From a virus, in the IMG/VR virus record IMGVR_UViG_3300024518_002003, positions 1-20,058 of that record: a stretch of DNA of 20,058 nt, one strand, 5' to 3'. Numbering within the stretch: the first letter of the stretch is position 1; each line of letters starts with the position of its first letter. The notes below the pieces were generated by a model, which saw nothing but the letters and a program-made list of their open reading frames with translations, was not told the origin of the DNA and searched no databases. The translations under genes were made by a program, and so were the position numbers. Of the stretch, positions 917-11,373 are shown piece by piece.

Positions 917-946
917 TTGACTGCGACCCGTTGCAAGCCGGAGAAT
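917..946 (+). promoter_or_regulatory. Candidate sigma70-like promoter upstream of the putative small terminase gene
   Basis: TTGACT (917-922, 5 of 6 to consensus) and GAGAAT (941-946, 4 of 6) are separated by 18 nt. The predicted transcript start falls at about 953, inside the dyad element at 951-972, as would fit a repressor site at a promoter. The match is moderate and could be chance. Confidence 0.3.
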
Positions 947-950
947 CCAG

Positions 951-972
951 GAACTGATCAAATGATCAATTC
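951..972 (+). promoter_or_regulatory. 22-bp dyad-symmetric element, copy 1
   Basis: The left arm GAACTGATCA and right arm TGATCAATTC flank a 2-bp centre. The arms are inverted repeats at 9 of 10 positions. Two related copies occur at 5537-5558 and 5569-5590, and 18 of 22 positions are identical in all three. All copies are intergenic and lie upstream of + strand transcription units. This copy ends 18 bp before the ATG of the 991-1566 gene. It is likely an operator for a dimeric DNA-binding protein; a phage-specific promoter is the alternative. Confidence 0.55.
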
Positions 973-990
973 CAAAAATAGGGCCAACAA

Positions 991-1566
991 ATGCCATCAC
1001 GCGCAATCAGCAACCCGAAGACTCGCGAGCACGCGGCGTTGCTAGTGGGCGCCTGCATCGCGACCATGCGGGGGCAGGGCATGACGTGGCGAGCGTGCAT
1101 CGCGGCGTTGCCGTCGCAGGCTATGCAAGAGCAGCCGGAGGCGTGGTTAGCGTTGCGCGGCGCTCTCGCGCAGCACAAGCGTATGGGGAGTATGCGGGTG
1201 CAGGCGCTTTATCGGCGTTATATGGAGGCACAAGCGGCAAATGCGGTGGAGTCAGCCGAGTCACAACGCACGTTAATCAACGCCCGACTAGACGAGCAGT
1301 ACGAGCTCCTCGCCACGACCCAAGCGGCACGCGACGGCGACCCAAAGACAATTGACGCGATGCGGAAGATTGAAGCCGACCGCGCAACGTTGTACGGGCT
1401 GCGTGAGAAGCAAGCAGGTGGTGAGCTTGCTGCGGCGTTGTCTGAATTGGCACGTGCGGCGCAACCACGACGCCTCGGGAACGTCGGCGCGGTGGTGGTC
1501 GACGTCCAGGGCGAATCCAGCAAGGCCCCACGGGGGGTGGAGGGGGGTACCCCGTCCAGTACCTGA
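991..1566 (+). CDS. Putative terminase small subunit (191 aa)
   Basis: The protein is mostly helical. The N-terminal part (TREHAALLVGACIATMRGQG, then MTWRACIAALPS) could form a helix-turn-helix. The middle and C-terminal part, with INARLDEQYELLATTQAARD followed by GDPKTIDAMRKIEADRATLYGL (about residues 95-140), resembles the helical pattern D-L/P-K-x-I/L-D-x-x-x-x-I-x-x-R-x-x-L-x-G-L seen near the C-terminus of many phage small terminases. This protein would recognise the packaging site on phage DNA and recruit the large subunit. AGGG at 979-982, 8 nt before the ATG, supports the start. The last codons are very G-rich, with two runs of six G at about 1532-1547. The gene is separated from the large terminase by about 2.2 kb and several genes, so the call rests on pattern resemblance alone. 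The antisense reading frames here are Ser/Arg-rich shadows. Confidence 0.5.
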   Translation: MPSRAISNPKTREHAALLVGACIATMRGQGMTWRACIAALPSQAMQEQPEAWLALRGALAQHKRMGSMRVQALYRRYMEAQAANAVESAESQRTLINARLDEQYELLATTQAARDGDPKTIDAMRKIEADRATLYGLREKQAGGELAAALSELARAAQPRRLGNVGAVVVDVQGESSKAPRGVEGGTPSST

Positions 1567-1574
1567 CGGGTTTT
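1551..1574 (+). terminator. Possible weak intrinsic terminator overlapping the stop of the 991-1566 gene
   Basis: CCCGTC (1551-1556) pairs with GACGGG (1565-1570) around an 8-nt loop and is followed at once by TTTTG and then ACTTT. The stop codon TGA lies in the loop/3' arm junction. The T-run is short and interrupted, so termination would be inefficient at best. Confidence 0.3.
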
Positions 1575-1613
1575 GAAACTTTGCCCACCGGACCTAACGG
1601 GTTTTGAAACTTT
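1561..1613 (+). repeat. Tandem 22-nt direct repeat with 31-nt period
   Basis: The unit ACCT(G/A)ACGGGTTTTGAAA plus CTTT occurs at 1561-1582 and 1592-1613, identical at 21 of 22 positions, and the following GCCC/CGCCC is also similar. The 31-nt offset is close to three DNA helical turns. I saw no further copy in the window. Directly downstream of a putative small terminase, such repeats could be part of a packaging (cos/pac) recognition site, or protein-binding sites; both readings are inference. Confidence 0.6.
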
Positions 1614-1815
1614 CGCCCTACGCGTACTTGTCGTCCAGGCGAGGTACGCCTTAGAGCGAAGCGCAGTGGTTATTCGGTGGTGGTTGTGTTCGTTTCGGCA
1701 CATTCAAACTGTGTGACACGAACTCGATGTAGCGAAGCGGATTCGAGTTTACCCTGAAACGTTCAGATCTCAAATGTTGTCAAGGTGAGACCGCCGGTCT
1801 GAACGAAGTTTACTT
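1614..1815. other. Non-coding stretch with three inverted repeats
   Basis: I see no credible gene between the putative small terminase and the minus-strand 56-aa gene. Three inverted repeats lie here: GCGTAC (1622-1627)/GTACGC (1644-1649); AACTCGA (1721-1727)/TCGAGTT (1743-1749) around a 15-nt loop; and CGTTCAGA (1760-1767)/TCTGAACG (1798-1805). The last one encloses a second stem, TCTCA (1768-1772)/TGAGA (1786-1790), stacked directly on its 5' arm; an alternative AGACC/GGTCT stem is also possible. The two flanking genes converge on this region, so terminator or packaging-site functions are possible. It does not fold as a tRNA that I can recognise. Confidence 0.45.
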
Positions 1816-1986
1816 TTACCTGCTGCGTTCAGGGTTTTGGGGCTCGGCTGGATTCTTGATCATAATGCGCCGTTTCTTCCTCGCTTTTTTCCTCTTCGCC
1901 GTGGCCTTTTCAGCCTTGATGCGCAGTCGTTCCCACGACGCCTTGCTCCTACTCGATTCGTACTTGCTGCCATTATGCCAAGCCAT
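1816..1986 (-). CDS. Tiny, highly basic protein of unknown function (56 aa)
   Basis: The start is set by the ATG at 1984-1986, because a near-perfect Shine-Dalgarno AGGAGGT lies 4 nt upstream (1991-1997 on the minus strand). An in-frame ATG nine codons further upstream has no such signal. The protein begins MAWHNGSKYESSRSK, continues through a helical segment SWERLRIKAEKATAKRKKAR and is dominated by Lys/Arg up to about residue 44, then ends in a Pro/Asn-rich tail. This composition suggests nucleic-acid or membrane-surface contact, but no known fold is evident. It is divergent from the + strand genes starting at 2056 and convergent with the putative small terminase. The strong ribosome binding site is the main reason for calling it real. 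Confidence 0.6.
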   Translation of the reverse strand: MAWHNGSKYESSRSKASWERLRIKAEKATAKRKKARKKRRIMIKNPAEPQNPERSR

Positions 1987-2055
1987 ATCAACCTCCTGCG
2001 GCGATTGTAACATGCGGTGTTGACGGGCGGGGATTTGCCGTGGTTGTTTAGGGCG

Positions 2056-2238
2056 ATGACTGAAGAGAAACCGAAGTTGCCCGCTATGCCTGAGAAGAAG
2101 TTCGCGGACCGGATGCGCGAGCGTTACCGGCTGCCTCGCTTCTTGTTTACCGTGGACCCTGCTGGCGGCTACCCGGTCGCGGCTTACAAGGGGCGGGTTA
2201 AGGGTAAGGGCTGGAGCGGCCTGGGGAAGTCGTTATGA
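2056..2238 (+). CDS. Hypothetical protein (60 aa)
   Basis: This short protein (MTEEKPKLPAMPEKKFADRM...) is charged at the N-terminus and ends in a Gly/Lys-rich segment (AAYKGRVKGKGWSGLGKSL). The middle part, YRLPRFLFTVDPAGGYPVAAY, looks like a small strand-turn-strand. I chose the ATG at 2056. A GTG at 2017 in the same frame would add 13 residues but has no ribosome binding site, and the AGGG just before 2056 is closely spaced. Its stop overlaps the next start (ATGA at 2235-2238), which supports translation of both. It would be the first gene of the unit leading to the large terminase. Function is not recognised. Confidence 0.5.
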   Translation: MTEEKPKLPAMPEKKFADRMRERYRLPRFLFTVDPAGGYPVAAYKGRVKGKGWSGLGKSL

Positions 2239-2450
2239 GTCTCATCACCCTTACTCAGGAACAGGTGGTCGCGTCGGTCGTGCGTGATATGATTCGCAGG
2301 GGCGAGCTGTCGACGGAGGTCGGGGTGGCGGCCCGGTTCGGGTTTAAGGACGACGTTATGACGATGTTTTTGATACAGGCCGCGACGGCGGATCTACCAC
2401 AGGGGTCGCAGGCGGAAATCAGCCTGTCTCCAGAGAAGATGGTGAATTAG
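2235..2450 (+). CDS. Hypothetical protein (71 aa)
   Basis: The start overlaps the preceding stop by the ATGA arrangement, so translation is probably coupled. The protein begins MSLITLTQEQVVASVVRDM and looks mainly helical, with a short hydrophobic stretch (MTMFLIQAATADL, about residues 42-54) that is too short and too polar for a confident membrane segment. The pattern T-Q-E-Q-V-V-A-S-V-V-R-D-M-I-R-R could be an amphipathic helix used for protein contacts. The stop at 2448-2450 is one base away from the next ATG at 2452. No family is recognised; its place suggests a packaging-associated or structural accessory role. Confidence 0.6.
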   Translation: MSLITLTQEQVVASVVRDMIRRGELSTEVGVAARFGFKDDVMTMFLIQAATADLPQGSQAEISLSPEKMVN

Positions 2451-2451
2451 A

Positions 2452-3096
2452 ATGCCCTGTCCCGGCGCCTACCCTCTTCCTTGCGTTCCCGCCAAGACCC
2501 CGCCGCCCCGCGCAGTACTTAATAGTATGGCGATGCAGGCTGCGATGGGTATCAACGACGCGATGCAGGGTCTTAAGCCCTACGTCGAGGGCCGGGAGTT
2601 GCCCAAGGGCGTGTCTCAGTCGGCGATCGTGCTGTCTACATCGGCGATGGTCTACTCCTCGCTCACCTCGCTGGGCTTGCCCGACGATGCGCCCGCCGGC
2701 TTCGGGGACGTGCTTATCTCGGCGAACCCGAAGACGCTGAGTCGGGAGTTCCGCGACTGCCGCAAAGCCATCGCAGACTTCTTTGAGTCGGACAACTGGC
2801 CTCGGCCCGCCGACAAGGCGCACTTCAGGTCCAAGAAGTCGGGCGTGTTCTTCGGTGAGGCGCTCGACGTTATGCACCTTTTACGAGCTGCGTACCTGCT
2901 CGACAGCGCCAAGGTCACCAACAAGATGACCAAGAAGCAGCGCAAGAAAACAGCCGGTTACGCCAAAGAGCGAGACAAGCAGGTTCGCGCCAGTTACCTA
3001 AACGACGGGCAGAAGGCGGCGGTTGCAGCCGCCATGTCCGCAGGAGCCTCTTTCGACGAGGCTTTGAAGGGAGCGGAAAATGCCGACGCGACTTGA
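2452..3096 (+). CDS. Hypothetical protein (214 aa)
   Basis: The N-terminus is Pro/Cys-rich (MPCPGAYPLPCVPAKTPPP). A globular central part follows, with SRELPKG-like turns and the segment FRDCRKAIADFFESDNWPRP near residues 99-119. The C-terminal third is Lys-rich and helical (NKMTKKQRKKTAGYAKERDK, then DGQKAAVAAAMSAGASFDEA). I do not recognise a family. The ATG at 2452 follows the previous stop by one base and lacks a clear Shine-Dalgarno, so translational coupling is likely; a later start at the internal Met near 2527 cannot be excluded. It overlaps the next gene by 17 nt. Position just upstream of the large terminase suggests a late-gene product. Confidence 0.65.
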   Translation: MPCPGAYPLPCVPAKTPPPRAVLNSMAMQAAMGINDAMQGLKPYVEGRELPKGVSQSAIVLSTSAMVYSSLTSLGLPDDAPAGFGDVLISANPKTLSREFRDCRKAIADFFESDNWPRPADKAHFRSKKSGVFFGEALDVMHLLRAAYLLDSAKVTNKMTKKQRKKTAGYAKERDKQVRASYLNDGQKAAVAAAMSAGASFDEALKGAENADAT

Positions 3097-3778
3097 GATG
3101 GCGCAAATGGCGCAGCAGATGCTGCCCGCAGAGTCGATCGGCTTGCCTGAAGAACTCGTGGCGCCTGCGCCCGCTTCTGGTCAGCCGCAACCGGGCGTCC
3201 CTTGGGATGACATTATGAAGTACGTCCGCGCCCGGTATTCCGTTAATGAGCCGATGCAGAGCATCAAACACGCCGCCCAAGACTTTGGCCCGCTCCAACC
3301 CGCAGACCCGACAGGCAAAGTGCTTGGCGCGTCAGTCGCCCCTCCCGGCTCCGGCTTGCTAAGAGGCGCTGCGAAGCTTGCCGCAGCGAAGCCGTCTCTG
3401 AACGCTGTCCGCAGCATGTTTCCAGCACGTAGCGCCGCTCAGTCGTTTCCGACCAAGAGCATGTCGAACGAAATTGCCCGTCGTAGCCTTCCTGAGTCTC
3501 TGGTTGGGGTGGTCAAGAAAAGCGAACCCATATCTCAGAGTTTCTTAGGCCAAGTAGCGAGCAGCCCAAACATTCTGGCCGATTGGGTTGGTCGATCGCC
3601 CAAGATGGCGGAGAAATTGAGAGACGGACTTGCCGCCCACCAAGGCGGTCACGCTGTAGTAGAAAAAGCCCACTTTGCTGTCCAATTGCTCAAACGAGGG
3701 AAACTGGGTGACGACGTAAAGGCCCATAGTTTGCTCATCGAGGCGGTCGAAGACCTCTTGAAGTGGCAAGCCAAATAG
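3080..3778 (+). CDS. Hypothetical protein (232 aa), possible minor virion or packaging accessory protein
   Basis: The start ATG at 3080 lies inside the end of the previous gene, and AAGGGAG about 8-14 nt upstream serves as ribosome binding site. The N-terminal third is Pro/Gln-rich (about residues 20-40). A Gly/Ala-rich stretch (GSGLLRGAAKLAAAKPSL, about residues 91-108) could be an amphipathic or membrane-active helix. The C-terminal part has LADWVGRSPKMAEKLRDGL and a helix-rich end (DVKAHSLLIEAVEDLLKWQAK). No known domain is recognised. Such low-complexity plus amphipathic organisation is seen in some virion accessory proteins, but that is only an analogy. The stop overlaps the start of the large terminase by 16 nt. 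Confidence 0.6.
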   Translation: MPTRLEMAQMAQQMLPAESIGLPEELVAPAPASGQPQPGVPWDDIMKYVRARYSVNEPMQSIKHAAQDFGPLQPADPTGKVLGASVAPPGSGLLRGAAKLAAAKPSLNAVRSMFPARSAAQSFPTKSMSNEIARRSLPESLVGVVKKSEPISQSFLGQVASSPNILADWVGRSPKMAEKLRDGLAAHQGGHAVVEKAHFAVQLLKRGKLGDDVKAHSLLIEAVEDLLKWQAK

Positions 3779-5508
3779 TGGCTGAGTTTCTCACCCAAGC
3801 GGACTACCTCCGCGAGATGCGCTCCTGTAAAGAGAGCCTGCTCTACTTCTGCCGCAAGTACGCCCACATCGAAGACCGAAAGAACGGACGCCCGCGCCTG
3901 TTCTCGCCCAACAACGAACAGTTACTACTATATAAGGCGCTAGAGGAGAACGATAAGGTCTACATCCTCAAGGCCCGAAAGCGCGGCCTCACCACCGCCT
4001 CTATAGTAAGGGCGGGTCACGGCTGCCACTTCAACGCCGGCTACAAAGCGGCGACCCTCACCCACGACGACGAGTCGGCAGAGGAAGTCCTCGCCACCAA
4101 GATGAGCCTGCTCCTTCGGCGGATGCCCGAAGCGTTCTTCCTTCACGACTTCGCCCTGCGTAAGCACCGCGCCAACCGCGTCGAGTGGAACCACGGCGCC
4201 GTGTTTCGTGCGATGACGTACAAGTCGGAGAAGGTGCGGTCGTCCGACGTAGACTTGCTCCACTTCAGCGAGTTTAGCGCCTACGAGAACGTCGAGAAGG
4301 TCATCAGCGCCAACGAGAACGCCCTGCGTCCCGGCGGCAAGGTCATATACGAGACGACAGCTCGGGGGTTGGGGTTCGCCTTCGACCTTTGGCGAGCCGA
4401 CAACGGCATCTGCAAGTTGTTCTTCCCGTGGACGACCGACCCGACCTACGCAATGTTCAACAAGCCAAACGTCACCCAAGAGGTGTGGGAGTGGGCGCAG
4501 CAGTACAAGGAAGACTTCCGTATCAAGCGCCAGCAGATGCACTGGGCTGCGTGGAAGATGAACTCCTACGGCGGCGCTATCACCAAACTGACGCTGCACC
4601 ACTTCAACAGCGAGTACCCGGTCACGGCGGATGTGGCGTTCTCCGTCGCCAGCGGTCGTGTGTTTCAGGTTATGTATCCCGGCGCTCGCGTCTCTACGGG
4701 TCTGTGTGAGTTCTCTGAGCCTGGGCCGTATCGCGTCTATACTATGGGTGTCGACACAGCGACGGGGTCGCCAACCGGAGACTTCAGCGCCTTCTGCATC
4801 CTTGATGTGACCAACAAGGAGGCGCCAAGTGTCGCGTGCACCTTCTATGACCGCATCCCGCCAACCGACTTCGCTGAAGTTGTCGTCCACTACGCCAAGA
4901 AGTACAACGCGCTGGTTGTCCCCGAGAGGAACATGGGCATCGACGTTGTCACCCTGTTGGACCGCAGCTCCTACCCCAACGTCTGGATTGAGCAAGCCTA
5001 CGCAAAGGTAGGCAAGAAGCGGGTGCCGAGACTCGGTTTTCACACTTCAGAGATGAGCCGGAAGATCCTCACCGGGCGGCTCGACCACTGGCTTGGCGGC
5101 CTTATCCCGAAGATGGACCCTCGATGTCCCCGATTGCAAAGTGAAATCAACGACTTTGTTTACTCAGACGACAAGCGACAGCGACCAGAACACATGCCCG
5201 GCAAACACGACGACATGCTGTTCGCCTTGGCGCTCGCCTTGGTTGGAATGGACCAGGCCGAACGTGTGCGAGAGAATCGGACTTGGGCGAGGCCCGGCTC
5301 TATCCAAGAGATGCGCCAGTACCGCAAGGTCACCGGCAAGGCTTACGACGCCAACGACCAATTCGACGCAGACCTTGAGGATGAACTGGACGTGTTGTTT
5401 GGCAAAAGGACCAAGCGCGGTTTACGGGGTCTGCACAAAATAGATGGCGAACAAACTAGGGGACACATCCCTTTGCCAGAGCGCATTGGTCGAACCAGAG
5501 AGTGGTAA
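3763..5508 (+). CDS. terL: Terminase large subunit (581 aa)
   Basis: This is the packaging motor ATPase and headful/cos nuclease, which docks on the portal. A divergent Walker A reads ILKARKRGLTT (residues 68-78), a form seen in phage terminases with KAR-Q/K-x-G-x-(S/T)-T. The Walker B-like segment is VDLLHFSEFSAYENV (163-177), where E170 is the likely catalytic Glu. The coupling motif follows as YETTARG (196-202). The C-terminal RNase H-fold nuclease shows MGVDTATGSPTGDFSAF with D331, then VVPERNMGID with E388, and HDDMLFALALAL with D483/D484 as the metal-binding set. The length is normal for the family. The start is GTG at 3763; GTG at 3778 is an alternative overlapping the previous stop. 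Neither has a strong ribosome binding site, so coupling to the upstream gene is likely. Confidence 0.93.
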   Translation: MASQIVAEFLTQADYLREMRSCKESLLYFCRKYAHIEDRKNGRPRLFSPNNEQLLLYKALEENDKVYILKARKRGLTTASIVRAGHGCHFNAGYKAATLTHDDESAEEVLATKMSLLLRRMPEAFFLHDFALRKHRANRVEWNHGAVFRAMTYKSEKVRSSDVDLLHFSEFSAYENVEKVISANENALRPGGKVIYETTARGLGFAFDLWRADNGICKLFFPWTTDPTYAMFNKPNVTQEVWEWAQQYKEDFRIKRQQMHWAAWKMNSYGGAITKLTLHHFNSEYPVTADVAFSVASGRVFQVMYPGARVSTGLCEFSEPGPYRVYTMGVDTATGSPTGDFSAFCILDVTNKEAPSVACTFYDRIPPTDFAEVVVHYAKKYNALVVPERNMGIDVVTLLDRSSYPNVWIEQAYAKVGKKRVPRLGFHTSEMSRKILTGRLDHWLGGLIPKMDPRCPRLQSEINDFVYSDDKRQRPEHMPGKHDDMLFALALALVGMDQAERVRENRTWARPGSIQEMRQYRKVTGKAYDANDQFDADLEDELDVLFGKRTKRGLRGLHKIDGEQTRGHIPLPERIGRTREW

Positions 5509-5536
5509 AAGCGACACCGCTCCCTGCTGCGGCACC

Positions 5537-5558
5537 GAACTGATCATATGATCTATTC
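5537..5558 (+). promoter_or_regulatory. 22-bp dyad-symmetric element, copy 2
   Basis: Left arm GAACTGATCA, centre TA, right arm TGATCTATTC; the arms match as inverted repeats at 8 of 10 positions. It lies in the gap between the large terminase and the scaffold gene. Its centre is 32 bp, about three helical turns, from the centre of copy 3, which suits cooperative binding on one DNA face. Confidence 0.55.
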
Positions 5559-5568
5559 CGTCGCGACC

Positions 5569-5590
5569 GAACTGATCAAATGATTAGTTC
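5569..5590 (+). promoter_or_regulatory. 22-bp dyad-symmetric element, copy 3
   Basis: Left arm GAACTGATCA, centre AA, right arm TGATTAGTTC; the arms match at 9 of 10 positions. The element directly abuts TTGACA at 5591-5596, a perfect -35 hexamer, so a protein bound here would touch RNA polymerase. The matching -10 (CATGTT, 18 nt downstream) is poor, as would fit an activator-dependent promoter. Confidence 0.55.
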
Positions 5591-5620
5591 TTGACAGACG
5601 GCCTCTGTCACCCGCATGTT
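5591..5620 (+). promoter_or_regulatory. Candidate activator-type promoter for the structural operon, with an overlapping hairpin
   Basis: TTGACA (5591-5596) is a perfect -35 and CATGTT (5615-5620) a weak -10 at 18-nt spacing. TGACAGA (5592-5598) and TCTGTCA (5604-5610) form a perfect 7-bp inverted repeat around CGGCC, so this segment could instead be an operator or RNA hairpin. No T-run follows, which argues against a terminator. Confidence 0.3.
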
Positions 5621-5662
5621 CCAAACCACGAGACGCCATCGATAAGGGCGAGGGAGAGAGAA

Positions 5663-6547
5663 GTGTCAGAAGTTCAAGGGGACGCAGAGTTCGTTGAAAG
5701 CCTCAAGGCCGACCTTGAGACCGCGCAAGTGGAAGACGCCGCATCGGAAGCGGCGGGGGCAGACGATGAGGAAGTCAGTTTCCTTGATAAAGAAGTGGAG
5801 GTCGAAGGCGGTGCGTCCGCTGAAGCTTCAACTTCGGCAGCAGATGAGACGTTCGAGCAGTGGCAGGAGAGAATTGGCGGCATCGATCTCGCGAACGCCC
5901 CGAAAGGGCTAGGCGTCCCGGTTCCAAGATTTTCTCAGGTCATTCACCAGCGCAACGAAGCGCGCACCAAGTATCAAGAACTTGAGGCGCGCTACGCAGA
6001 ACTGGAGCGACAGGCAGCAAAGCCGCCGTGGGTAGACCAACTCGCGGCGCAGCAGCAGCAGCCTCAAGTCAATTCAGACGAAGCGTGGCTCGACAGCATC
6101 CTCGGCACTTCGGAAAACGCTGTGTCACCACAGCACATCGACCAAGTGGTCGAACAACGGCTGAACGCGCACCCTGCGGTTCAGCAATTCCAATCTTACC
6201 TCGCCAACCAGGAGCGGGAAAAACAGAACTACCACCTCGCCACTCAACTGCGAGCTGAAGTTCAGGAGATTCAGGAAGCGTACCCAAACGTCCCAGAGCA
6301 GTTCTTGTACAACGCTTACGCCGCGAACCAGAACATGCTCCAGACGGCACAGTCGCTGTCGCAACTTCTGGGCCAGCAGCAAGGCGCGCAAGCGCCAGCC
6401 GCAAACCAGATGCACGCCGCACCGCCCGTAATTGGACGCGCTCCCTCAAGGCCTCGTACCGCCGCTCCGGTGAAAACCAACGCGATGGATGACGACGACT
6501 TTCTCTTGCACATGAGGCAAACGGTGAAGCAGCAGTTTGGTAGTTGA
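5663..6547 (+). CDS. Putative capsid scaffolding protein (294 aa)
   Basis: The gene lies directly before the major capsid gene. The product has the usual scaffold make-up: a very acidic N-terminus (residues 1-65, many Asp/Glu/Ala), a predicted coiled coil after VPRFSQVIHQRNEARTKYQE (88-107) continuing to about residue 118, a Gln-rich middle with QQQQPQ, and a C-terminus with basic residues (RAPSRPRTAAPVKT) and MDDDDFLLHMRQTVKQQF. R-F-x-x-V-I-x-x-R-N-E-A-R is a recurring scaffold signature in my memory. The start is GTG at 5663, supported by the strong purine-rich AGGGAGAGAGAA just upstream. The reading frame is open back to a TTG at 5591, but that lies in the regulatory element. The scaffold should be co-assembled with the capsid protein and leave the head before DNA packaging. 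No protease motif is visible in it or next to it. Confidence 0.75.
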   Translation: MSEVQGDAEFVESLKADLETAQVEDAASEAAGADDEEVSFLDKEVEVEGGASAEASTSAADETFEQWQERIGGIDLANAPKGLGVPVPRFSQVIHQRNEARTKYQELEARYAELERQAAKPPWVDQLAAQQQQPQVNSDEAWLDSILGTSENAVSPQHIDQVVEQRLNAHPAVQQFQSYLANQEREKQNYHLATQLRAEVQEIQEAYPNVPEQFLYNAYAANQNMLQTAQSLSQLLGQQQGAQAPAANQMHAAPPVIGRAPSRPRTAAPVKTNAMDDDDFLLHMRQTVKQQFGS

Positions 6548-6570: not shown

Positions 6571-8001
6571 ATGGCAACCACGACCTCACTCAACTCGGTC
6601 CTCAAGACCAAGTACTCGGATCGAATCGAGTACCAACTGAACGACGAGGGTAACCTCCTCAAACTCTTCAAGAACGCGATCTGGGACTGGTACGGTCTCC
6701 AGATCCACGTCCCCGTGCACGTCAGCCGAAACGATGGCATCCAAGCCATTCCGTTCGGCGGCAACTACCGCACCGCAGGCGACCAGGGTTACAACAACCT
6801 TATCGTCACGGCGGCGCTGCTTACCGGCCACATCTACATTCCGCGCAGCGAGATGAAGAGGGCGAAAGAGAAGGGCTACGGCGCCTTCGTTTCGTGGTGG
6901 GACGCTGAGTTCAAGCGCACGATGGTGGACGTGAAGTTCCGCGCCAACCGCTACTTGCTCGCGGGCAACCGCTTCAAGGGCTTCATCACCAACCGCAACG
7001 GTGGCGGCGCCGGTAACACCGGCAACAACAGCACGGGTGCATGCACAGTCGCAGCGCCCGCCGCCGGCACGGACACGAAGGACTACTTCGGCGACATGAG
7101 CGCGTTCGACGGCTCTGACGAAAACCCCGTTGCGGTCGGCACTGGTCCCGCGCCCATCGTCAGCAACTCGTGGGTCCGCATTCGCGTGTTCCGCTTGGAC
7201 ACGCTGGCAGAAGTCCTCACGACCGGCGGTATCGCGAACCCGGCAATCTGGGTCAGCGCATTTGACGCAACCGCCCGCACGATCGACGTATCGGTCACGG
7301 CGAACCTCGCCGCCGAGTCGCTCGACCTGAATATCGCCGGCATGCCTGCTGGCCAGATCTTCGGTGTTGCGCTCTCTCCGACCGCTTACCTCGACAGCAC
7401 GGGGGCGCCGTTCGGCGCACTCACAAGCTTTGCCAATCAGCCGCAGGGCGTGTTCGGCAACCTCTGTGAGCCGGTCCACTTCGGTATCGACCGCACCACG
7501 GCGACCGGCACGGCGGTTGTGTTGCAGTGCGACGCGCTGTTTATGCAAGCCAACGATGCCGTGGGAGCACGCGCTGCGGTCACCCCGGCTCGTGTCCAGC
7601 ACTGCATGGACCAGGCGTTCGTGGACGGCGGCGAGGAGATCGATTGCATCCTCATCAGCCCGCTCACTCGGGCCGCATACCTCGCCATCATGACCGGCAC
7701 GCTTACAGCGAACGTCGAGAGTGCTGGCGGAAAGGGCGACGCCGCCTACTCCAGCCTCGCGTTTGCGGGGATGAAGTTGAAGGTCAGCCAACACGTGCCG
7801 CCGGGCGGCTGGATCTTCCTCAAGCGCAGCTCGTGGAAGATTGCGGAGATGAGCAAGTGCGAGTTCGTTGATGACGACGGCTCCATCATCCACCGCGTTT
7901 CTGGCACCTCTGCATTTGAGGCCGCCATCGAGTGGTACTACAACTTCGTCTGCCTCAAGCCTCGCTGCAACGCGATTCTTGCTGGCACCGCACTGGCTTA
8001 G
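6571..8001 (+). CDS. Major capsid protein, HK97-fold type (476 aa)
   Basis: This protein builds the icosahedral shell. The N-terminal region (residues 1-60, with KYSDRIEYQLNDEGNLLKLF and then IHVPVHVSRNDGI) fits the N-arm and first strands. PRSEMKRAKEKGYGAFVSWW and the following helix match the usual spine-helix region. Near residues 344-374, HCMDQAFVDGGEEIDCILIS and LTRAAYLAI resemble the A-domain pattern, and PPGGWIFLKRSSWKIAE (about 410-426) the late strand motif. A Gly/Asn/Thr-rich linker (about 141-156) opens a Ser/Thr/Ala-rich section up to about residue 290, possibly an inserted surface domain; this would explain the greater length relative to minimal HK97-type proteins. AAGGA precedes the ATG by about 10 nt. 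The long antisense frame across this gene is a codon-bias shadow. Confidence 0.87.
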   Translation: MATTTSLNSVLKTKYSDRIEYQLNDEGNLLKLFKNAIWDWYGLQIHVPVHVSRNDGIQAIPFGGNYRTAGDQGYNNLIVTAALLTGHIYIPRSEMKRAKEKGYGAFVSWWDAEFKRTMVDVKFRANRYLLAGNRFKGFITNRNGGGAGNTGNNSTGACTVAAPAAGTDTKDYFGDMSAFDGSDENPVAVGTGPAPIVSNSWVRIRVFRLDTLAEVLTTGGIANPAIWVSAFDATARTIDVSVTANLAAESLDLNIAGMPAGQIFGVALSPTAYLDSTGAPFGALTSFANQPQGVFGNLCEPVHFGIDRTTATGTAVVLQCDALFMQANDAVGARAAVTPARVQHCMDQAFVDGGEEIDCILISPLTRAAYLAIMTGTLTANVESAGGKGDAAYSSLAFAGMKLKVSQHVPPGGWIFLKRSSWKIAEMSKCEFVDDDGSIIHRVSGTSAFEAAIEWYYNFVCLKPRCNAILAGTALA

Positions 8002-8014
8002 GGGGAACTGACCA

Positions 8015-9378: not shown

Positions 9379-11373
9379 ATGTACGGTGAAGAGCCGCGCA
9401 TTGGTGACTTGCGCGAACCCATGATGAAGGCGGGCAAGGTATCGTCTGCCATCGACGTTGCGCGTAATGACCGGACGCCAGATGTCGCCGCGTGGAATCA
9501 CGTGCTGCGCTTTCTCGCTAACCAGCAACACTTCAGTTACGGCTCAGACCGCCGCACGCTCGTCCCCAGTAAGGTGTCGCCGGGCCAGAACGAGATCGTC
9601 ACCAACATCATGTTGCCGATCTACCGAACCACCATCAGCCTGCTTATGACGCGCACCCCGCGCCTCACCGTTCTGCCAACAACTCCAAGCATAGACAACA
9701 TCACCAAGGCCAAGGCGTCTTCGGTGGTACTTGGCGCTTGGTGGTATCAGGCGCGCATGGACGAGCAGATGGCGACCGTCGCCAAGTTCCTGTCCTCTTG
9801 CGGAACCGCCGGCCTGCACAGCTACTATGACCCCGGCATGGACAAGGTCTGCACCGAAGCGGTCAGCCCATACGACCTTATCTTTGAGCCGTACACGTCG
9901 GCAGATACCGAGTGGAACTGGCTGGCGATACGCCGAACGCTCGACAAAGACGCGGTCATGCGGACGTACCCTGACTTCGCCGAGTACCTCAAGGACCAAT
10001 CGACCGAACGAGACGCAGGCGAGACTGACACCAAGATGCATCGCGACGCGGAGAACCGCATCGACACCTTCCGCGTGTACTTCAAGAACGGCGACTCGGG
10101 CGTGTTGGTTGGTAACAAGTGGGTGTGGCAGGGGACAACACCGGACGGCATCATGCCGGTAAGCATCTGTAGGTTCCATGATGTGCCGGGCAACATCTAC
10201 GGGATGGCGCAGCTCTATCCGATTCTCGACATCCAACGCTCATACAACCGCTTCAAGAACTTCGCGCTCGACATCGCAGACACGATGAGCAACCCGGTGT
10301 GGTTGGTTCCATCAAACAGCGGGATTTCGAGCCAGCAGATTACCAACGAACCTGGCGCAGTTATCCGCTACAACCACATGGGCGAAAAGCCCACCCGCGA
10401 GCAGGGCGCTTCACCGCCAGCCGCCTTGTTTGACATCCAAGCACGCGAACACGCGGTCGCCTTTGACATCGGCGGCATTCACCCGTCGTCCACAGGTAAG
10501 CGCAGCACCGGCATCACCAGCGGCGTCGCCATCCGCGAACTGCGCGAAGGCGACCTTGGTGCAATCGAGTTCACGATGCAGGACATCGCTCGTGCTATCG
10601 AGGACCAGGGCCGTAACGTGTTGGTGTTGACCAAGGCGCACATCAGCGAACAGAAGATGGTCCGCATCATGGACCAGAGCGTTGGTCGGGTTGTGTTCAA
10701 GGAGATCGCCAACTCCGACATCGTTGACGCACCGGAGGTCAAGGTTGAGGCAGACACGCTGTTCATCCACAAAGCCCGTGAGCGCGACGAGCAAATCATG
10801 GCCATGTATGAGAAGGGTCTTGCGACGCCTGAACAGGTGAACAAGCAACTCTCGATGCGGATAGGCGAACAAGATGCGCTGCAAGAAATGGTGGACCTGT
10901 CGCACGCACAGGACTTGCTTGAGTACGCCAAGCGTGGCGGCAAGATTGAGATCTCTATGGCAGACAACCTCGCCTCCATTCGTAAGACATTCGAGGAATA
11001 CATCCGCTCGCCCGCGTACTACGAGCAGACCGCGATGCTCAAGCAGCAGTACGGCATGACGCAGGGCGAAGGTGACTACATCGGGTTGGTCGCGCAGATG
11101 GGAGTAGACGACTACGTCTATGACCAGTACCTGTACGTTGTCGCGATGGAAATGGGCATGGGGCAGCAGGCGTTCGGCCAAGAGTTGCAGCAGTCCTACA
11201 TGCGAAACAGCGGGCAGATGCCGCCACAGCCGCAAGGCCCGCAAGACCCGGCACAGGCGCAACAGGCCGCCCAGCAGGGCGTGCGGACGCAGGACATCGG
11301 CAACCAGAACAGCGCCATGCGACAGGACATGGGCGCGCTCAAAGGCACGCCCGGCGTGACGGGGTCACCATGA
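9379..11373 (+). CDS. Portal protein (664 aa)
   Basis: The portal forms the ring at one head vertex through which DNA enters and leaves. Diagnostic pattern: PVSICRFHDVPGNIYGMAQL followed by YPILDIQRSYNRFKNFALDI (about residues 260-299), the typical wing/stem segment with P-x-x-x-x-G-x-x-x-x-x-x-x-x-Q-x-x-x-N. Earlier, NEIVTNIMLPIYRTTISLLM (71-90), SPYDLIFEPYTSADTEWNWL (163-182) and the strand-rich FRVYFKNGDSGVLVGNKWVW (231-250) also fit portals of podoviruses. DIGGIHPSSTGKRSTGITSG and VAIRELREGDLGAIEFTMQD (about 360-400) correspond to the tunnel-loop and following helix. The last 65 residues are Gln/Pro/Ala-rich, probably a flexible tail. Placement after the capsid gene is unusual. GGGGG lies about 9 nt before the ATG. 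Confidence 0.9.
   Translation: MYGEEPRIGDLREPMMKAGKVSSAIDVARNDRTPDVAAWNHVLRFLANQQHFSYGSDRRTLVPSKVSPGQNEIVTNIMLPIYRTTISLLMTRTPRLTVLPTTPSIDNITKAKASSVVLGAWWYQARMDEQMATVAKFLSSCGTAGLHSYYDPGMDKVCTEAVSPYDLIFEPYTSADTEWNWLAIRRTLDKDAVMRTYPDFAEYLKDQSTERDAGETDTKMHRDAENRIDTFRVYFKNGDSGVLVGNKWVWQGTTPDGIMPVSICRFHDVPGNIYGMAQLYPILDIQRSYNRFKNFALDIADTMSNPVWLVPSNSGISSQQITNEPGAVIRYNHMGEKPTREQGASPPAALFDIQAREHAVAFDIGGIHPSSTGKRSTGITSGVAIRELREGDLGAIEFTMQDIARAIEDQGRNVLVLTKAHISEQKMVRIMDQSVGRVVFKEIANSDIVDAPEVKVEADTLFIHKARERDEQIMAMYEKGLATPEQVNKQLSMRIGEQDALQEMVDLSHAQDLLEYAKRGGKIEISMADNLASIRKTFEEYIRSPAYYEQTAMLKQQYGMTQGEGDYIGLVAQMGVDDYVYDQYLYVVAMEMGMGQQAFGQELQQSYMRNSGQMPPQPQGPQDPAQAQQAAQQGVRTQDIGNQNSAMRQDMGALKGTPGVTGSP

Follow-up and report, generated by a model that had tools for sequence, protein, structure and literature searches.

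The DNA analysed here, referred to as the window, is the complete 20,058-base IMG/VR record IMGVR_UViG_3300024518_002003, which is classed as linear and is a fragment of a phage genome. It carries three near-identical 22-bp dyads, E1, E2 and E3 (Table 1), which we read as putative operators of a single dimeric DNA-binding regulator, encoded by the phage at a place outside the 20-kb fragment; we give this reading a probability of roughly 0.6. All three dyads are intergenic and head two rightward gene blocks, E1 the terminase block (991-5508), and E2 and E3 the block of scaffold, capsid and portal genes that begins at 5663. We favour operators because the dyads are far above chance and unique in the window, because what is conserved in them does not extend past the symmetric 22 bp and the RNA fold is not kept in E2, because E2 and E3 sit in extra DNA at the junction between the large terminase (TerL) and scaffold genes, and because the corresponding control region of some relatives holds sites of like design but other sequence.

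The three elements are identical in 18 of 22 columns (columns 11, 17, 18 and 19 vary), and the left arm, GAACTGATCA, is invariant. Pairing between the arms amounts to 9, 8 and 9 of 10 positions in E1, E2 and E3, respectively, and the copies differ from the ideal dyad GAACTGATCA-NN-TGATCAGTTC by one, two and one mismatches. A preliminary description of this DNA had reported the positions of the elements, their identity, an arm pairing of 8-9 of 10, the intergenic location and a distance of 32 bp between the centres of E2 (5547.5) and E3 (5579.5), and all of these were reproduced. With up to three mismatches allowed, the ideal dyad occurs in the window at E1, E2 and E3 only (expected 0.00, with no match in 100 shuffles). 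In a dyad-pair search of the window, the best pair matched at 20/22 positions and three pairs at 18/22 or more, compared with a maximum of 17/22 in 1000 dinucleotide-preserving shuffles, none of which held any pair of at least 18. A symmetric weight matrix scored the three elements at 38-39 bits and the next best stretch at 0.4 bits; the window therefore contains exactly three copies and no weak ones. A half-arm match with one mismatch at 8005, located at the ribosome-binding site of the next gene, was judged to be chance. The G+C content of the elements is 32%, versus 59% for the whole record. The conserved part ends at the dyad edges, and the flanks of the three copies have no sequence in common. 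Another way to parse each dyad would be as a tandem of two 8-bp TGATCA boxes within a GAA/TTC frame.

Relatives of the phage were reached by a degenerate capsid pattern followed by a capsid alignment, which gave 18 syntenic contigs, and by a portal search of IMG/VR, in which 264 relatives were matched and 80 kept. Single-protein capsid and TerL searches of IMG/VR gave no relatives, aligning the portal with that of Microbacterium phage Shocker gave distant relatives only, and a terminase alignment against genome contigs gave remote relatives only (22-29% identity). The phage belongs to a large, mostly uncultured clade with the common order TerL-scaffold-capsid-portal and protein identities of ~30-38%. 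The nearest named phages (Microbacterium Shocker, Cellulosimicrobium DS1 and Arthrobacter phages) have portal proteins 23-25% identical to that of a clade member. One locus, L086, is the same virus in another record (99.9% over 5,912 bp), and the elements lie outside that overlap. The gap between the TerL and scaffold genes, which holds E2 and E3, measures 154 nt in the window (5509-5662) versus 0-114 nt, usually ~40, in 45 relatives, where no such dyad pair is found; the dyads therefore lie in extra lineage DNA at a conserved junction. The E2-E3 stretch gave chance-level matches only against phage and plasmid records. A search for tandem half-sites (GAACTGATCA-N12-42-GAACTGATCA) returned 23 matches, none with the right arm, and most of them look coding (Glu-Leu-Ile repeats, for example). 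The sequence of the dyads is lineage-specific.

The design of the control site appears to be more widespread than its sequence. A few loci stood out when intergenic clade DNA was scanned for near-identical 20-mers spaced 20-60 bp from one another. At L069 (4560-4640), two 20-bp repeats with a GTACT-N5-AGTAC core lie exactly 32 bp apart, ~2.2 kb upstream of TerL. L145 (60-240) has three to four GTATA-N5-TATAC-like dyads, and L138 (1450-1760) and its near-twin L115 (1-211) have several CTAC-N6-GTAG dyads within ~220 bp. The gene following the dyads of L138 encodes an 82-aa XRE (Cro/C1-type) regulator (HTH_3, E 2.5e-14) and is itself followed by a gene for a DnaB-like helicase. These repeated dyads lie in the control region that precedes the terminase genes, and their sequence differs from lineage to lineage. 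By a simple estimate the 18-19/20 matches of the scan are far above chance, and some of the 16/20 matches are probably chance. An XRE regulator is carried by 5 of 17 relatives, and in L143 and L164 a TTGACA-N3-TGTCA dyad, which covers a -35-like hexamer and resembles window positions 5591-5610, lies ahead of the XRE gene.

Several results weigh against the operator reading. The ideal dyad has no copy within five mismatches in 1.06 Mb of clade DNA, the exact motif has no match in all of IMG/VR, and most relatives have no tandem dyads at the corresponding place in the available loci. The preliminary description had named absence from the intergenic regions of relatives as an outcome contrary to its proposal, and the motif is indeed absent there; we do not weigh this as a refutation, because operator sequence is not expected to persist at ~30-38% protein identity. 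Among the open reading frames (ORFs) of the window there is no regulator of a recognised DNA-binding family, though several ORFs match no family. E1 and the E2/E3 pair share no geometry relative to any promoter match. Furthermore, all four departures from symmetry sit in the right arm and the copies share one orientation, a coincidence with a chance of ~1 in 8 that would suit a directional element as well, and the polarity is not decisive.

If the dyads are operators, the regulator would bind E1 where the terminase block begins, between the leftward and the rightward genes, and E2 and E3 on one face of the helix, three turns apart, where two dimers could be bound side by side. Packaging and head genes would in this way be switched together by the phage. 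Should the TTGACA that adjoins E3 serve as a -35 element, E3 would be centred at about -48 and E2 at about -80, an activator-like position, whereas transcription from the only weak promoter match near E1 (917-946) would start inside this dyad, an arrangement that would suit a repressor. The preliminary description had proposed a control site for a dimeric regulator; a set of protein-binding dyads is the best supported form of that proposal, whereas binding itself and the dimer, as well as cooperativity and late timing, are what we infer from it. Its statement that the downstream copy adjoins a TTGACA was correct, and we add that this hexamer is the left part of a second, perfect dyad. Positions 5591-5610 may represent a -35 element with an overlapping operator, or else an RNA hairpin. 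The -10 region behind the TTGACA is poor (GCATGT or CATGTT). Scans of the window for sigma70-like consensus sequences (4 matches versus 4.6 expected) and for terminator-like structures (no better than shuffles) were not above chance.

Comparable sites are known from other phages. Protein p4 of phi29, a phage-encoded dimer, governs the early/late switch from imperfect inverted repeats next to the late promoter, of which each region has two; the consensus is CTTTTT-15 bp-AAAATG (PMC3100819). The likeness would lie in the site layout, with paired inverted repeats; sequence and spacing differ, p4 sites involve A-tract readout, and the window sites stand at two separate block heads. Mor/C of phage Mu also acts as a dimer; its inverted repeats span ~16 bp and have their centre near -43.5 relative to a promoter used by the host polymerase (PMC4390567). 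The layout would again be comparable, with E3 near -48 of the TTGACA, whereas the Mu dyad is shorter and a single site, unlike the set in the window. Relatives of p4 or of Mor/C were not seen here, in an analysis that included no search aimed at either family. The XRE/Cro-C1 operator arrays of L138 and L115 belong to the same clade as the window phage and also consist of several near-identical dyads in a control region; their sequence is different and they stand directly before the regulator gene, whereas the window showed no XRE gene. By analogy, the dyads would work most like the phi29 p4 sites, the Mu Mor/C sites and the operator arrays of their own clade.

Most likely this is a known kind of genetic switch, and what is new is the sequence. 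A bolder proposal, which we regard as doubtful, is that a regulator of an undescribed family co-controls the packaging and head blocks, and that such regulator-operator pairs diverge fast by lineage and could decide which phages interfere with one another. As operators, the dyads could be used as bait to isolate the regulator, and the structural genes of the clade would be suggested to run on the host polymerase plus a lineage-specific switch and not on a polymerase of their own. Given complete genomes, the arrays that adjoin regulator genes in relatives would allow the operator idea to be tested by computation.

It is unlikely that the dyads act as RNA hairpins in the leaders of both blocks, with a role in RNA processing or stability or in the control of translation. 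The fold of E3 is perfect (-9.3 kcal/mol, z -6.9), E1 ends only 18 bp before the start codon, and a hairpin that immediately precedes the ribosome-binding site of the scaffold gene is conserved in the clade. However, pairing is lost in the other copies, by a C-A mismatch in E1 (-5.3) and by C-A and U-U mismatches in E2 (-4.2), and all four changes are one-sided, with no compensation. The clade hairpin, moreover, differs in sequence and adjoins the ribosome-binding site, and its candidate in the window lies downstream of E3.

About equally improbable are sites for packaging or other DNA handling (as pac/cos sites recognised by the small terminase, or in replication or partition) that flank the terminase module. 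Small terminases of some phages bind DNA near their own genes, and E1 immediately precedes the gene for the putative small terminase, with E2/E3 immediately behind TerL. On the other hand, sites on both sides of the module plus two at the head of the capsid operon fit transcription control better, the identity of the small terminase is itself unproven, and no such dyad follows TerL in the 45 relatives.

We consider it less probable still that the dyads bind a host regulator, or that their GATC sites are methylation-sensitive switches. GATC is present in every dyad (two sites in E1, two in E2 and one in E3) though it is depleted elsewhere, with 39 sites observed in the window versus ~73 expected, but E3 retains just one. 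Least probable of all are rightward promoters for an RNA polymerase of the phage (T7-type or another), the main alternative of the preliminary description: the shared orientation of the three copies, the invariant left arm and the block-head placement recall T7-type promoters, likewise repeated elements of 20-odd bp in one direction ahead of gene blocks, but those are non-dyad with a common initiation region, whereas the window elements are palindromic, their conservation is symmetric and ends at the dyad edges, the sequence after the 22 bp shares nothing among the copies, and no single-subunit RNA polymerase (PF00940) was detected in 15 relatives (fragments, so not proof; six are of 34-40 kb) in a search with a positive T7 control.

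Table 1. Dyads, neighbouring sequence elements and genes in the window.
Feature	Position	Strand	Remarks
E1	951-972	+	22-bp dyad GAACTGATCA-AA-TGATCAATTC; full sequence GAACTGATCAAATGATCAATTC
E2	5537-5558	+	22-bp dyad GAACTGATCA-TA-TGATCTATTC; full sequence GAACTGATCATATGATCTATTC
E3	5569-5590	+	22-bp dyad GAACTGATCA-AA-TGATTAGTTC; full sequence GAACTGATCAAATGATTAGTTC
TTGACA	5591-5596	+	adjoins E3; left part of second, perfect dyad
Perfect dyad TGACAGA-CGGCC-TCTGTCA	5592-5610		separate from E3; 7-bp arms; hairpin -8.0 kcal/mol, z -3.2
Weak sigma70-like match TTGACT-18-GAGAAT	917-946	+	if used, transcription start ~953, inside E1
Dyad TTGACG-CATGC-CGTCAA	872-888	.	minus-strand TTGACG ahead of TTTACT
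Hairpin candidate CGCC-ATCGATAAG-GGCG-AGGGAG	5634-5656	+	downstream of E3; weak alone (z -1.0)
Methyltransferase-like ORF (weak)	2-328	leftward	
Mycobacteriophage L5 gp82 family ORF	417-821	leftward	PF25735
191-aa ORF, putative small terminase	991-1566	+	first gene behind E1
Large terminase (TerL)	3763-5508	+	PHROG 2, E 1.7e-22; clade homologues
Scaffold protein	5663-6547	+	first gene behind E2/E3; syntenic homologues, E down to 2.6e-10
Major capsid protein	6571-8001	+	PHROG 14242, E 1e-23; clade alignment
Portal protein	9379-11373	+	PHROG 156, E 3.3e-23; clade alignment

E1 lies within a divergent control region (822-990), 18 bp ahead of the ATG at 991, and E3 ends 72 bp ahead of the GTG at 5663. 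In the same divergent region, the minus-strand TTGACG at 872-888 together with TTTACT is a possible promoter of the leftward genes. As for the genes behind the sites, scaffold and capsid were assigned as in the preliminary description, with support from the syntenic scaffold homologues, whereas the small terminase is unproven: the 191-aa ORF had no match in Pfam, PHROGs or NCBIfam, and its structure model is all-helical, of low confidence and without a PDB match. The models of this ORF and of a 71-aa ORF were too poor for naming a function. The 191-aa ORF is followed by a 450-bp stretch with no obvious rightward gene, then by four ORFs with no family match and by TerL; after the portal gene, further structural or unassigned ORFs continue, almost gapless, to the end of the window.

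A direct-repeat pair, ACCT(G/A)ACGGGTTTTGAAACTTT (1561-1582 and 1592-1613, 31 bp apart), is found at the stop codon of the 191-aa ORF and precedes the 450-bp stretch without rightward genes. A basic 65-aa ORF (MAWHNGSKYESS...KRKKARKKRR; 1816-2013, minus strand) stands alone between rightward genes and has no family match.

In many relatives, including L058, L061, L087, L100, L115, L143 and others, a short hairpin of the form CG(C/U)C-loop-G(G/A)CG-U(U)AAAAGGAG immediately precedes the ribosome-binding site of the scaffold gene, and lineages differ in it by an exchange of C-G for U-A. The candidate at 5634-5656 is probably the window version of this hairpin. Palindromes of another type, C-rich/G-rich (CCCCCCTTAAGGGGGG type) and terminator-like, were observed at L060 (9225), L066 (8716) and L072 (8078), where they closely follow the capsid gene and recur ahead of the terminase genes.

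Finally, a type II hammerhead ribozyme match (RF02276) was observed on the minus strand at 361-417, between the gp82-like and methyltransferase-like genes. It is full length, with CUGAUGA, GAAA and a GUC cleavage site, and scores 26.8 bits, below the gathering score of 37, with an E-value of 0.1 over the whole window and 0.0006 over the local stretch. A hammerhead match is also found in a relative (contig of L155, 16551-16614), where it scores 31.6 bits and lies on the strand opposite the late genes.

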